Assembly (NCBI GenBank): GCA_020718085.1
Contig: DYDB01000001.1
Span: 1 to 47,383 of the forward strand
Direction of reading: 5' to 3'
Length of the DNA: 47,383 nucleotides
DNA from: Micavibrio sp.
GTDB lineage: Bacteria > Patescibacteriota > Minisyncoccia > Moranbacterales > GCA-2747515
The notes below the pieces were generated by a model. The model saw nothing but the letters and a program-made list of their open reading frames with translations, did no database searches and was not told where the DNA came from. Positions 18,033-21,805 of the stretch are shown in pieces (positions within the stretch are counted from its first letter, which is position 1; the number at the start of each line of letters is the position of its first letter). The translations under genes and the position numbers were made by a program.

Positions 18033-19430
18033 ATGGATGCAAAGTGGTTTAAAGGAAAAAGAGTGACGGTTTTCGGTATTGGGCTACTTGGTGGTGGTGT
18101 AGGCACAATTCGTTTTCTTGTGGAAAATGGTGCACGTGTGATTGCCACAGATATTAAAAACAAGGAGCAACTTGCACATTCCTTGGAACAAATGAAGGAT
18201 TTGAAAAATGTGGAATATGTTCTAGGGCAACATCGGCGGGAGGATTTTACGAAAGTTGATATGGTGATCAAGACACCTCAGGCACAATGGACAAATAAAC
18301 ATATTGCACTTGCCATTAAAGAAGGTATCCCTGTAGAAGTTGATTCGAGTTTGTTTTTTAAATTATGCAAAGTGCCGATCATTGGCATTACGGGCACCAA
18401 GGGAAAAACTACTACGTCAAATTTGATCCATCATATTTTAAAAAAGGCAAATAAAAATCCGATCAAAATTGGTATTGGACAAATGCCGGTTCTTGATCGT
18501 TTGAAATTGATCAAAAAAAATTCTGTCGTGATATTTGAATTGTCGAGTTGGCGATTGTCCGGTCTAACGAAAGCACATATGAGTCCGCATATTGGAGTTT
18601 TTACAAATTTCTTTCCGGATCATATGAATTATTATCGCACCATGGATGAATATTTATTTGATAAGAAGAATATTTTTGTGCATCAGAAACCGAAGGATTG
18701 GTTTATTTGCAACAGGGATGATGCAACCGTTGGCGCACTCTGTCGTGAAGCAAAGGGAAATATGATGATGATTGCATCACAGCATATCTCGGATGGTCGT
18801 AGTGTATTTTGCGAAAATGGGGAGATCTATATTAATGATGGAATTGATATTTCTGCAGTGATGTCTGTAAAAGAGAATCCATTGCGCGGAACACATAATA
18901 CTAATAATGTAATGTGTGCAATGGCCGCCGCTTTTGCATACGGGGTTTCTCCAAAGGCAATTGTAGCTGGTGTAAAAAGTTTTCGTGGAGTGCCGCATCG
19001 TTTAGAATTGGTAGATGAAAAAAAAGGTGTGAAATATTATAATGACACTGCAGCCACTAATCCTCAGTCTGCCATTGCGGCACTTCAATCCTTTACTGAA
19101 CCAATTATTTTAATCGCTGGTGGAGCAGATAAAAATTTGAATTACGAGAAGTTCGCAAAAGAGATCGTGAATGTGGTCAAAGGTGTAGTTTTTATCAAGG
19201 GTGACGCTACAGATAAAATTGTGCGATTGATCAAAAAGGAGCTGGGGAAGGATCAAGAAAAAATCGCATTTGAGATCGTGGATGCAATGGATAAGGCAGT
19301 TGAAATTGCATCGCTGGGTGCACAAAAAGGTGACGTTGTGCTTTTATCGCCAGGAGCAGCGAGTTTTGGTGTTTTTGCAAATGAATTTGATCGAGGTAAT
19401 CAATTTAGATCATGCGTGTTATCATTGTGA
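18033..19430 (+). CDS. murD: UDP-N-acetylmuramoylalanine--D-glutamate ligase
   Basis: IIGITGTKGKTTTSNLI, FELSSWRL, NFFPDHMNYY, YYNDTAATNPQSAIAAL, LLSPGAASFGVFANEFDRGNQF. Confidence 0.94.
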   Translation: MDAKWFKGKRVTVFGIGLLGGGVGTIRFLVENGARVIATDIKNKEQLAHSLEQMKDLKNVEYVLGQHRREDFTKVDMVIKTPQAQWTNKHIALAIKEGIPVEVDSSLFFKLCKVPIIGITGTKGKTTTSNLIHHILKKANKNPIKIGIGQMPVLDRLKLIKKNSVVIFELSSWRLSGLTKAHMSPHIGVFTNFFPDHMNYYRTMDEYLFDKKNIFVHQKPKDWFICNRDDATVGALCREAKGNMMMIASQHISDGRSVFCENGEIYINDGIDISAVMSVKENPLRGTHNTNNVMCAMAAAFAYGVSPKAIVAGVKSFRGVPHRLELVDEKKGVKYYNDTAATNPQSAIAALQSFTEPIILIAGGADKNLNYEKFAKEIVNVVKGVVFIKGDATDKIVRLIKKELGKDQEKIAFEIVDAMDKAVEIASLGAQKGDVVLLSPGAASFGVFANEFDRGNQFRSCVLSL

Positions 19431-19538: not shown

Positions 19539-19611
19539 GGGCCGGTAGCTCATCTGGTAGAGCGCCTCACTTGCACTGAGGAGGTGGCGGGTTCGAGTCC
19601 TGTCCGGTCCA
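19539..19611 (+). tRNA. tRNA-Ala (TGC)
   Basis: Cloverleaf fits: GGGCCGG acceptor, CCTCA-CTTGCAC-TGAGG anticodon arm, GCGGGTTCGAGTCCTGT T-arm. Confidence 0.95.
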
Positions 19612-19621
19612 CAATACGGAA

Positions 19622-19684
19622 AAAAAGTTAAAAGGAAAAAGTTTATAAAGTAGTGCACTTTCAACTTTTTTCTTTTAACTTTTC
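19622..19684 (+). repeat. Long inverted repeat between tRNA-Ala and the tRNA-Ile region
   Basis: AAAAGTTAAAAGGAAAAAGTT ... AACTTTTTTCTTTTAACTTTT, about 21 bp with one G-T pair; inner AAAGT/ACTTT. Confidence 0.8.
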
Positions 19685-19687
19685 GCT

Positions 19688-19763
19688 GTATAAGGGCGAT
19701 TAGCTCAGGTGGTTAGAGCGCGCTCGCCGCGGCGAGTAATGACGAGGCTTCCTCGTCACGCGG
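19688..19763 (+). pseudogene. Truncated 5' copy of tRNA-Ile with palindromic insert at the anticodon arm
   Basis: GTATAAGGGCGATTAGCTCAGGTGGTTAGAGCGCG is identical to 19783-19817; followed by CTCGCCGCGGCGAG, then TAATGACGAGG; no T-arm or acceptor 3' half. Confidence 0.85.
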
Positions 19764-19788
19764 AAAAATTAAAAATAGTGAAGTATAA

Positions 19789-19862
19789 GGGCGATTAGCT
19801 CAGGTGGTTAGAGCGCGTCACTGATAATGACGAGGTCCGAGGTTCAAGTCCTCGATCGCCCA
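19789..19862 (+). tRNA. tRNA-Ile (GAT)
   Basis: Complete cloverleaf: GGGCGAT/ATCGCCC acceptor, CGTCA-CTGATAA-TGACG anticodon arm. Confidence 0.96.
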
Positions 19863-19866
19863 CAAT

Positions 19867-20118
19867 ATGTACACAACATATGTCTTGGAAAATATGCAAA
19901 AACGCATATACATTGGACACACAAAAGATCTTAACGATAGACTTCAGATGCATAATGATGTATCTGAAGAGAAGATGCGTTTCCATAAAACAACATATAA
20001 AAAAGGTCCATGGCAGGTGATCTATGAAAAAGCATTTTCAACTCGATCAGAAGCACGTGCACATGAACAATTTCTAAAATCAGGAAGAGGAAGAATGACA
20101 CTGTCATCTTACCGATAG
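19867..20118 (+). CDS. Small GIY-YIG nuclease-domain protein
   Basis: MYTTYVLENMQKRIYIGHTKDLNDRLQMHN...GPWQVIYEKAFSTRSEARAHEQFLKSGRGR: single-domain GIY-YIG. Confidence 0.92.
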   Translation: MYTTYVLENMQKRIYIGHTKDLNDRLQMHNDVSEEKMRFHKTTYKKGPWQVIYEKAFSTRSEARAHEQFLKSGRGRMTLSSYR

Positions 20119-20123
20119 GCAGG

Positions 20124-20186
20124 GAGCGCGCCCATCTGAGGCGGGTAATGACGAGGTCCAAGGTTCAAGTCCTCGATCGCCCACAA
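20124..20186 (+). pseudogene. Truncated 3' copy of tRNA-Ile
   Basis: 20146-20186 matches 19825-19865 with one mismatch (TAATGACGAGGTCCAAGGTTCAAGTCCTCGATCGCCCACAA); preceded by GAGCGCG plus an unrelated 15-nt insert. Confidence 0.88.
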
Positions 20187-20235: not shown

Positions 20236-21699
20236 TTAGAAAATGAGACTTTCTTTCTCGGGAAATTCAATAGAACGTAAGCCGCGTTTAATGTTATCGT
20301 AGGAGTCGATAAAATACAGTCGATCCATTTTGTGTTTATTGATCAATTTGGTATTTTTTTCTGTTAGTGAAATGATGGTGTCGGTGATGCGATTGCTGCG
20401 ATAGTCCAATTCTGTGATCTTAATATCGTTGTTTATGGTAAAAATAACGTGCTCATAATCCTTTGCAAAATGTACATTATCTATTAATTGTGAAAAACGC
20501 ACAATTGAATGAACCTCATCTTCTTGTCGTATAGGCTGCGCTTCCCAATCACGTGCAAAATAGATGAATATTTCAAAGGGGGAATAAAACAATATCTTTT
20601 TCCCGTCGTCGGAAAAATGTGCACCAATAATGCCTGTTCCAACTTTTTTGTTGTAAATATTACGGTCACCTTTATTGTAGATGTGTAGTGTTTGAGTAGT
20701 GTCATTGAGGATTGCTATGCGATGTGTGTCATAGGCATCAAGACGCACGCTTTTCGTTTCTTGTGGAAGATCAAAGGTGATCAATTCCTCCAATTGTGAT
20801 CCTCGAACATCATGATCATGAAGAAGAACGTGTTCTTTGTTTAAAACATAAATTCCATCATCAGTAAAATCATATGCGAGTACGTTTTCTGAGACTTGTT
20901 CTGTGGTGATTGTCATATCATCAGTAATTTTTCCACGAAATAATTTTTCTTGAGCTAGGAAAAAAAATGCATCACGTTCCTTTGGGTCCCAACGTACGGA
21001 AGACAGCTGTCCAAGTGAAATTTTTTCAGAAAGAAGAAAAGAATCGTTGGTTTTTGTATAAGCAATTGCATAATCCTTTGATGATGAATCGTCAATGTTT
21101 TCAAGCGGAATGATTAATTCTCGACTGGAGGGGGACCATTCAATATTTTCATTTTTGTTTTGTGTAAGATCTTTTTGCATAAAGAGAAATGTGTTGGTAA
21201 TGCTGTCTTTTTTTGTATCAAATACATGGACTGTCTGCACCTTGCCGATTTGTTTAGAACATGCAAAAAGATTTTCTTCTGGAGCTGGAAAGAACTGGTC
21301 AATATCCGTTATGGCATAGTTTGACGTTTCATAATTGTTGCGCAACAAGAGCACATTCCAAAATTCTGTAGAAAGACCACTGTGTACGGGAACTGATTTT
21401 TCCCACGTTCTATAGCCATCTGCTGAAATAGCAAGAGTGTGCTGTTTTGCGCGGATCCCATGAATCTCATAAGAGTCATTGATCACGTTAATTAATTTTG
21501 ATTGGGGTATGTGTCCATCAATGTTTACTCCGATAGTTTTGGGATTTGACTTGATGGTGATCGATCCAGTGTGGATAAAGATCTTCTGCGCAAAATCGTG
21601 ACGATAACCAAAAACAAAAAATAATATTACAGCAGTTGTAATAAAATAGGAGATAGTTAGTGTCCAAAAGAATATGCGTCTGGGAATGGGGGTTTTCAT
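20236..21699 (-). CDS. PEGA domain-containing membrane-anchored protein
   Basis: N-terminal TM; SNPKTIGVNIDGHIPQSKLINVINDSYEIHGIRAKQHTLAISADGYRTWEKSV is PEGA-like. ORF track starts at 21762; MKTPIPRR start preferred. Confidence 0.8.
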   Translation of the reverse strand: MKTPIPRRIFFWTLTISYFITTAVILFFVFGYRHDFAQKIFIHTGSITIKSNPKTIGVNIDGHIPQSKLINVINDSYEIHGIRAKQHTLAISADGYRTWEKSVPVHSGLSTEFWNVLLLRNNYETSNYAITDIDQFFPAPEENLFACSKQIGKVQTVHVFDTKKDSITNTFLFMQKDLTQNKNENIEWSPSSRELIIPLENIDDSSSKDYAIAYTKTNDSFLLSEKISLGQLSSVRWDPKERDAFFFLAQEKLFRGKITDDMTITTEQVSENVLAYDFTDDGIYVLNKEHVLLHDHDVRGSQLEELITFDLPQETKSVRLDAYDTHRIAILNDTTQTLHIYNKGDRNIYNKKVGTGIIGAHFSDDGKKILFYSPFEIFIYFARDWEAQPIRQEDEVHSIVRFSQLIDNVHFAKDYEHVIFTINNDIKITELDYRSNRITDTIISLTEKNTKLINKHKMDRLYFIDSYDNIKRGLRSIEFPEKESLIF

Positions 21700-21805
21700 A
21701 GGTATATGTAAAAATTTATTGTGAATTGATAGTATAATACATATTATACTACAAATCAACACTTATGTAGTGTATAATGATATTGTTTTTAATAAAATAA
21801 AAGGT

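Follow-up and report, generated by a model that had tools for sequence, protein, structure and literature searches.

The window, the whole stretch of DNA analysed here, comprises 47,383 nt of contig DYDB01000001.1 from a Micavibrio sp. assembly (GCA_020718085.1), whose 1.29-Mb genome is referred to as G000. Between a MurD-like Mur ligase gene on the left (positions 18033 to 19430, forward strand; Pfam Mur_ligase_M/C) and a PEGA-domain gene on the right (20236 to 21762, reverse strand; Pfam), the window carries a tRNA-Ala(TGC) gene (19539 to 19612, forward strand; ARAGORN), which is the conserved upstream neighbour of tRNA-Ile and keeps this order in relatives, followed by tRNA-Ile sequence that is present both intact and in pieces. 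The intact inner tRNA-Ile(GAT) was located by ARAGORN and in an Rfam scan at 19789 to 19863 on the forward strand (70.4 bits; its end falls at 19862 or 19863), and an 83-aa GIY-YIG nuclease gene lies behind it at 19867 to 20118 on the same strand (PF01541, 52 bits). These two genes are flanked by an outer tRNA-Ile, of which the displaced 5' part (19694 to 19747, forward strand) consists of tRNA nucleotides 1 to 29, a palindrome and TAATGACGAGG, while the displaced 3' part (approximately 20123 to 20186, forward strand) runs from the end of the D arm (GGAGCGCG) through a decayed hairpin to the tRNA 3' end. In line with what an earlier note on this DNA had claimed, the 35-nt exact copy of the tRNA-Ile 5' region (19688 to 19722, identical to 19783 to 19817), the 41-nt copy of its 3' region (20146 to 20186 against 19825 to 19865, 98%), the complete tRNA and the reading frame behind it are all present, and the insert contains no integrase, the GIY-YIG gene being the only gene inside it. 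Both repeats are too long to have arisen by chance in 47 kb. A tRNA search of the G000 genome found no second tRNA-Ile(GAT), so the cell presumably depends on the inner copy. An A/T-rich inverted repeat with 21-nt arms (95%) occupies positions 19623 to 19683, between tRNA-Ala and the displaced 5' piece.

The proposal that one tRNA-Ile gene had been split by a cassette held, but its halves do not meet in the anticodon arm as had been supposed; they overlap, and a GC-rich hairpin is present in both. In the 5' piece, a perfect 14-bp palindrome (CTCGCCGCGGCGAG, 19723 to 19736) stands where the anticodon arm of the intact tRNA-Ile has TCACTGA, and direct reading places TAATGACGAGG behind it at 19737 to 19747 on the forward strand, as the end of the piece. 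In the 3' piece, the anticodon-arm position is taken by a decayed hairpin (CCCATCTGAGGCGGG, 20131 to 20145), recognized by reading it against the CCCGCC..GGCGGG hairpins of the related loci L060, L061 and L063. Since both outer pieces contain the end of the D arm (GAGCGCG), the hairpin and TAATGACGAGG, they overlap rather than abut. A hairpin was found at the same tRNA site in L006, L017 and L059 to L063. Folding revealed a second hairpin directly after the 5' piece (CCGCG..TGACGAGG-CTT-CCTCGTCA-CGCGG; 19727 to 19763, forward strand). At the RNA level, the outer halves of the window tRNA-Ile, if joined, would fold as a cloverleaf in which the hairpin forms the anticodon arm. A group I, group II or other structured intron was rejected, with no Rfam match in the window region or in nine related loci.

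Uninterrupted alleles of the locus, which the earlier note had proposed to look for between the murD and PEGA genes, were present in three congeneric genomes. G003, G004 and G005 each carry the MurD-like ligase gene, tRNA-Ala, an uninterrupted tRNA-Ile, a terminator-like hairpin and the PEGA gene in this order, with amino acid identities to the window of 77-78% for the MurD-like protein and 53-56% for the PEGA protein. Comparison of these loci places the outer pieces, the displaced 5' part included, where the relatives have their tRNA-Ile. Together with the recurrence of the same architecture at many tRNAs described below, these alleles support the earlier reading of the locus as a tRNA-restoring mobile cassette. 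In the sister species G002, this locus (L016, contig 135) has an intact tRNA-Ile and, between it and tRNA-Ala, a different GIY-YIG gene, which suggests that this site has been used repeatedly. The presence of GIY-YIG genes is patchy even inside the genus.

Small GIY-YIG genes were surveyed across the order, yielding 89 loci from 131 genomes. An intact tRNA was found within the cut-off of 300 nt at 65 of the 89 loci, on the same strand as the GIY-YIG gene in every case (65/65); random 250-nt intervals in other loci were near a tRNA in 5.9% of cases (P ~1e-59 against the observed value). About a quarter of the order's small GIY-YIG genes have no tRNA nearby. Displaced tRNA ends, scored as exact copies of a tRNA end of at least 12 nt and controlled with mismatched locus pairs, were strongly enriched: a 5' end lay upstream of the GIY-YIG gene in 22 of 49 loci with the order GIY-YIG then tRNA, against 8 of 1454 mismatched pairs, and a 3' end lay downstream in 10 of 33 loci, against 3 of 981. 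Direct repeats, mostly tRNA pieces, surrounded the GIY-YIG gene at 46 of 93 tRNA-linked loci and at 9 of 29 others, and at several of these 9 the repeats were tRNA-derived too. The architecture recurs, with related GIY-YIG genes, at Ile, Lys, Gln, Asn, Ser, Pro and Ala tRNAs and further ones, the tRNAs at GIY-YIG loci also including Gly, Tyr, Thr, Val, Met, Leu, Cys and Glu. Sampling over the phylum detected the GIY-YIG family in 265 of 380 genomes; among the 29 best loci, 24 were within 300 nt of a tRNA, all on the same strand, and 15 had a displaced copy. That so many independent assemblies share the arrangement speaks against a misassembly.

Many of these loci have an intact tRNA at one end and a 3' fragment at the other, the footprint that integrase-type islands usually leave. 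A cassette with a restoring tRNA end could thus have been inserted at a tRNA attachment site by a tyrosine recombinase acting in trans, as an island or satellite with the GIY-YIG gene as cargo. The cassettes share with integrase-encoding tRNA islands the tRNA gene as a site, its partial duplication and its restoration. However, inserts of approximately 300-500 nt hold no integrase, the GIY-YIG gene is their only conserved gene, many loci displace the tRNA 5' end or both ends instead, and hairpins occupy the anticodon arm of the displaced pieces. The cassettes also differ from such islands in their size of about 0.4 kb and in carrying a complete tRNA. We regard this origin as very unlikely, and as the least probable of those considered here.

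A scan of genome contigs with the window protein alone returned only two relatives, L006, which has the same layout, and L007, which lacks a tRNA, so that further relatives were sought by searching whole genomes. L006, on a Magasanikbacteria contig, consists of tRNA-Ile, a 60%-identical GIY-YIG gene whose start is 2 nt downstream of the tRNA, and a 3' piece that contains two hairpins. Transfer on viruses gained no support: one scan of viral contigs with the GIY-YIG family gave 44 pattern matches and no confirmed relative. The five next best relatives in the order (L059 to L063) are all located at tRNA-Ile with a 3' piece, and in most of them the GIY-YIG frame ends within the pseudo-tRNA, where GAG TGG TTA GAG CGC G, the hairpin and TAA encode GREWLERARRGE*. 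Within this Ile class, the GIY-YIG start codon lies 0-5 nt behind the tRNA; in L059, L062 and L063 it abuts the tRNA 3' end, so that tRNA 3' processing could leave a leaderless mRNA.

Split tRNA genes might also arise by tandem tRNA duplication and decay of the extra copies, the GIY-YIG gene being a bystander in the spacer. We scanned for outer halves whose acceptor strands pair mutually across an intact tRNA. Outer and inner acceptor stems differed at L001 (Gln, in G000), L069 (Lys), L164 (Ala) and L033 (Ile, without GIY-YIG), and were the same at the window locus, L032, L063 and L066; by reading, they differ at L028 and L260 as well. A foreign restoring part was assigned to Gln in G000, Lys in G072, Ala in G079 and Ile in G023, G018 and L260. 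Where the outer stem matches itself and the inner stem is different, the cassette has evidently brought a complete replacement tRNA; the window copies share one acceptor stem, so the window locus alone does not show import. One such case is the tRNA-Gln(TTG) cassette of G000 (L001; contig 15, approximately 123 kb), whose GIY-YIG frame continues through the displaced tRNA-Gln 3' piece and thereby gains a tRNA-coded C-terminal tail. The native gene is uninterrupted in G002, G003 and G004, with the acceptor stem TGCCCGG..CCGGGCA behind a promoter region the same as that of G000. The outer halves in G000 (TGTCCGG/CCGGACA) differ from the genus stem by one compensated change and have the genus T-loop, while the inner tRNA has TGGACCG..CGGTCCA and a core identical (57/57 nt) to that of a tRNA-Gln located downstream of a GIY-YIG gene in G020, a genome of another family, and differing from the genus gene at 6-8 positions. 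Because the T-stems of the outer and inner tRNA-Gln are alike, the two copies may have undergone some local conversion.

These acceptor-stem mismatches largely refute tandem duplication, which we consider unlikely. The shared acceptor stem of the window copies and the tandem hairpin pseudo-tRNA repeats of L066 and L070 would fit it, as would partial copies without a GIY-YIG gene: 4 of 43 tRNA-Ile loci lacking GIY-YIG hold a split or pseudo-tRNA, so partial copies are tied to the GIY-YIG gene strongly, as the reading of the earlier note requires, but not absolutely. Duplication leaves unexplained, however, how mutually pairing outer halves came to enclose a tRNA with a different acceptor stem, why the strands agree at 65 of 65 loci, and why GIY-YIG phylogeny tracks tRNA identity across host families.

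The protein at the centre of the cassette is a single GIY-YIG domain with intact catalytic-site residues (Y5, Y15, R25, H29 and E67); these residues and G17 are invariant in an alignment of 20 relatives. An AF2 model shows the GIY-YIG fold with a short helical tail only (pLDDT 88.7), and neither Pfam nor the model contains a separate DNA-binding module in the 83 residues. Among proteins of solved structure, those of the UPF0213 group and the structure-specific nuclease Slx1 are closest; the window protein has no match in PHROGs, and some relatives weakly match phage homing endonuclease families. The window gene has the domain and catalytic residues of a free-standing GIY-YIG homing endonuclease, is not encoded in an intron or intein and is absent from the homologous sites of relatives; the separate DNA-binding module that it lacks is typical of such enzymes but does not define them. 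The GIY-YIG protein is under strong purifying selection, judging from coding-sequence comparisons (median dN/dS of 0.12 over 41 gene pairs). On a tree of 59 GIY-YIG proteins, tRNA identity required 26 changes, against 43.6 +- 1.7 after shuffling (0/300 as low), while host family required 34, against 33.5 when shuffled, and gave no signal. GIY-YIG lineages, as far as this tree resolves them, follow the tRNA gene and not the host family; 23 of its 56 inner branches are unresolved because the proteins are short.

Such selection, together with the conserved catalytic residues and wide occurrence, would also be expected of a gene that benefits its host: a nuclease for repair or tRNA-related functions, kept beside tRNAs for expression, whose breaks leave tRNA pieces as by-products. 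The short distance (0-5 nt) from the tRNA to the start codon in Ile-class loci and the relation to Slx1 are in keeping with this. Patchy presence within one genus, the many different tRNAs involved, a tree that ignores host family and a frameshifted copy at tRNA-Ser in G000 point the other way, and we judge a host function of this kind very unlikely.

Collectively, these findings suggest that the window contains a homing-type mobile cassette of Patescibacteria, very small in size, which takes a tRNA gene as its site and probably spreads by nuclease-driven cutting and replacement. The cassette would pair the GIY-YIG nuclease gene with a whole tRNA or with the part that is missing from one, and would be seated within a tRNA gene of the same acceptor type, so that the native gene is left outside as one or two displaced pieces and the copy beside the nuclease gene presumably keeps its function. 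The nuclease may cut the native tRNA gene in the D/anticodon region; cassette-bearing DNA would then serve as the template for repair of the break, the tRNA halves acting as homology arms. The hairpin found in the displaced pieces instead of an anticodon arm may mark or protect the cut site. Cutting and repair of this kind would explain why native genes are split, why a restoring copy can lie on either side and why lineages are specific to a tRNA. Where an essential tRNA has no working copy other than the one in the cassette, the cassette would be hard to lose. The proposal builds on the layout, the empty sites, the differing inner tRNA at several loci, the tRNA-specific lineages and the purifying selection, all read from sequence; that the GIY-YIG protein drives the movement, as the earlier note proposed, is something we infer from these. 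The window inner tRNA has a native-type anticodon arm, so it is not obvious how it escapes cutting.

Hairpins are a regular part of the order loci, mostly located 25-60 nt upstream of the GIY-YIG start or immediately downstream of the gene, and those of the Ile class (L059 to L063) vary by compensating changes (CTCGCC/GGCGAG, CCCGCC/GGCGGG and GTCGCC/GGCGAC). The palindrome of the window (TCGCCNNGGCGA) occurs only at this locus in the 1.29-Mb G000 genome and was rejected as a plain genome-wide repeat. Hairpins of the types TCCGCC..GGCGGA and CCAGCC..GGCTGG are dispersed in intergenic DNA of the 131 order genomes (e.g., L098, L109, L122 and L134 to L138), some of them inside a gtcattgcga..gaagcaatcc repeat. 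Given the dispersal of the TCCGCC..GGCGGA type, independent insertion may account for some hairpins. The count of dispersed hairpins of this type in a genome increases with its count of GIY-YIG genes (rho, 0.62; within-family permutation, 0/5000), a correlation that comes in part from the cassettes' own hairpins. The hairpins may represent a cut site that has been destroyed, may form a structure that the nuclease reads or may control expression; hairpins regulate the homing endonucleases of phage T4 (PMC2988022).

The dispersed GC-rich palindromes and the nuclease gene accompanied by palindromes bring to mind another class of element. REP sequences are GC-rich small palindromes dispersed in genomes, and the RAYT nuclease gene is flanked by similar palindromes. 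The cassettes differ in that their nuclease is of the GIY-YIG type with no Y1 (HUH) transposase, their hairpins are of another kind and the hairpin link is a correlation only. A more far-reaching version of the cassette proposal, which we hold tentatively and think rather doubtful, is that the GIY-YIG protein would recognize tRNA-like or hairpin DNA and act as a natural cleave-and-replace drive whose ends are hairpins and not inverted repeats. It would then move cassettes by recombination among tRNA genes marked by hairpins, substitute essential tRNA genes in different families and spread the small GC-rich hairpins of these genomes as RAYTs do with REPs.

The proposed homing-type cassette has a close parallel in the mORFs of fungal mitochondria (Allomyces atp6; Glomus atp6, atp9, cox2 and nad3), in which an endonuclease ORF, of the LAGLIDADG type or, at atp9, GIY-YIG, is inserted together with the end of a foreign gene, which makes the host gene complete again and pushes the native end downstream; according to PMC3630166, biochemical work on Allomyces showed that the endonuclease moves the element. 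The order of intact tRNA, GIY-YIG gene and displaced 3' piece follows the same logic, and the endonuclease ORF lies between the restoring copy and the displaced native end in the window, L006, L059 to L063 (all Ile) and L064 (Pro). mORFs, however, concern protein genes in mitochondria and supply the gene end only, whereas the cassettes are located in bacterial tRNA genes, often carry a complete replacement tRNA, include 5'-displacing forms and have hairpins in the displaced pieces. A GIY-YIG enzyme beside tRNA genes is also known from SegB of phages T4 and T6, a free-standing homing endonuclease in a tRNA cluster that cuts inside tRNA genes and promotes their spread and amplification (PMC13096335, PMC2988022); by our own reading, its motif RAWTSGAAC is the complement of the tRNA T-loop. 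Unlike the cassettes, SegB is a phage gene between intact tRNAs that neither splits a tRNA nor brings a replacement. Engineered Cleave-and-Rescue and homing-with-rescue drives link a nuclease to a working copy of an essential gene (PMC7951863). The cassettes likewise combine a nuclease with a working copy of the gene it is thought to disrupt; the drives are synthetic, use genes other than tRNA genes and have a rescue copy designed for resistance, which is not evident in the cassettes.

No earlier description of GIY-YIG/tRNA cassettes in CPR bacteria was found in the open-licence literature; the cassettes, probably homing-type replacement elements, are real and general, and undescribed to the extent of that literature. 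As a rule, homing elements do no harm because they splice out or are located between genes. In contrast, the cassette seems to disrupt an essential tRNA gene present in a single copy and to supply the replacement itself within about 0.4 kb of DNA, which makes it an apparent natural counterpart of the engineered cleave-and-rescue drives. Such behaviour would account for the abundance of small GIY-YIG genes in Patescibacteria, for the lack of host taxonomy in their trees and for the turnover of tRNA acceptor stems among closely related genomes, and it raises the questions of horizontal replacement of essential tRNA genes by selfish cassettes, of how a nuclease of fewer than 90 residues chooses its tRNA gene and of what the hairpins do.

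Three further loci or groups of loci showed variant arrangements. On the reverse strand of L033 (1430 to 1670; contig 4 of G023), a split tRNA-Ile surrounds an intact tRNA-Ile without a GIY-YIG gene, and the insert, which is perhaps a non-autonomous form, terminates in the inverted repeat CCCCGCACTAAAAATTCAA / TTGAATTTTAGTGCGGGG. Tandem tRNA-Lys pseudo-copies with hairpins, in units of approximately 70-90 nt and 2-4 copies, lie beside the GIY-YIG gene in L066 (1150 to 1290) and L070, in arrays that may be seen as reminiscent of SegB-driven segmental amplification. Lastly, a third cassette of G000 is located at tRNA-Ser(CGA) on contig 15 at approximately 38.9 kb (L005, 1430 to 1858); 13 nt of the tRNA 5' end are followed by two hairpins in tandem, a GIY-YIG gene with a frameshift and then the intact tRNA-Ser.
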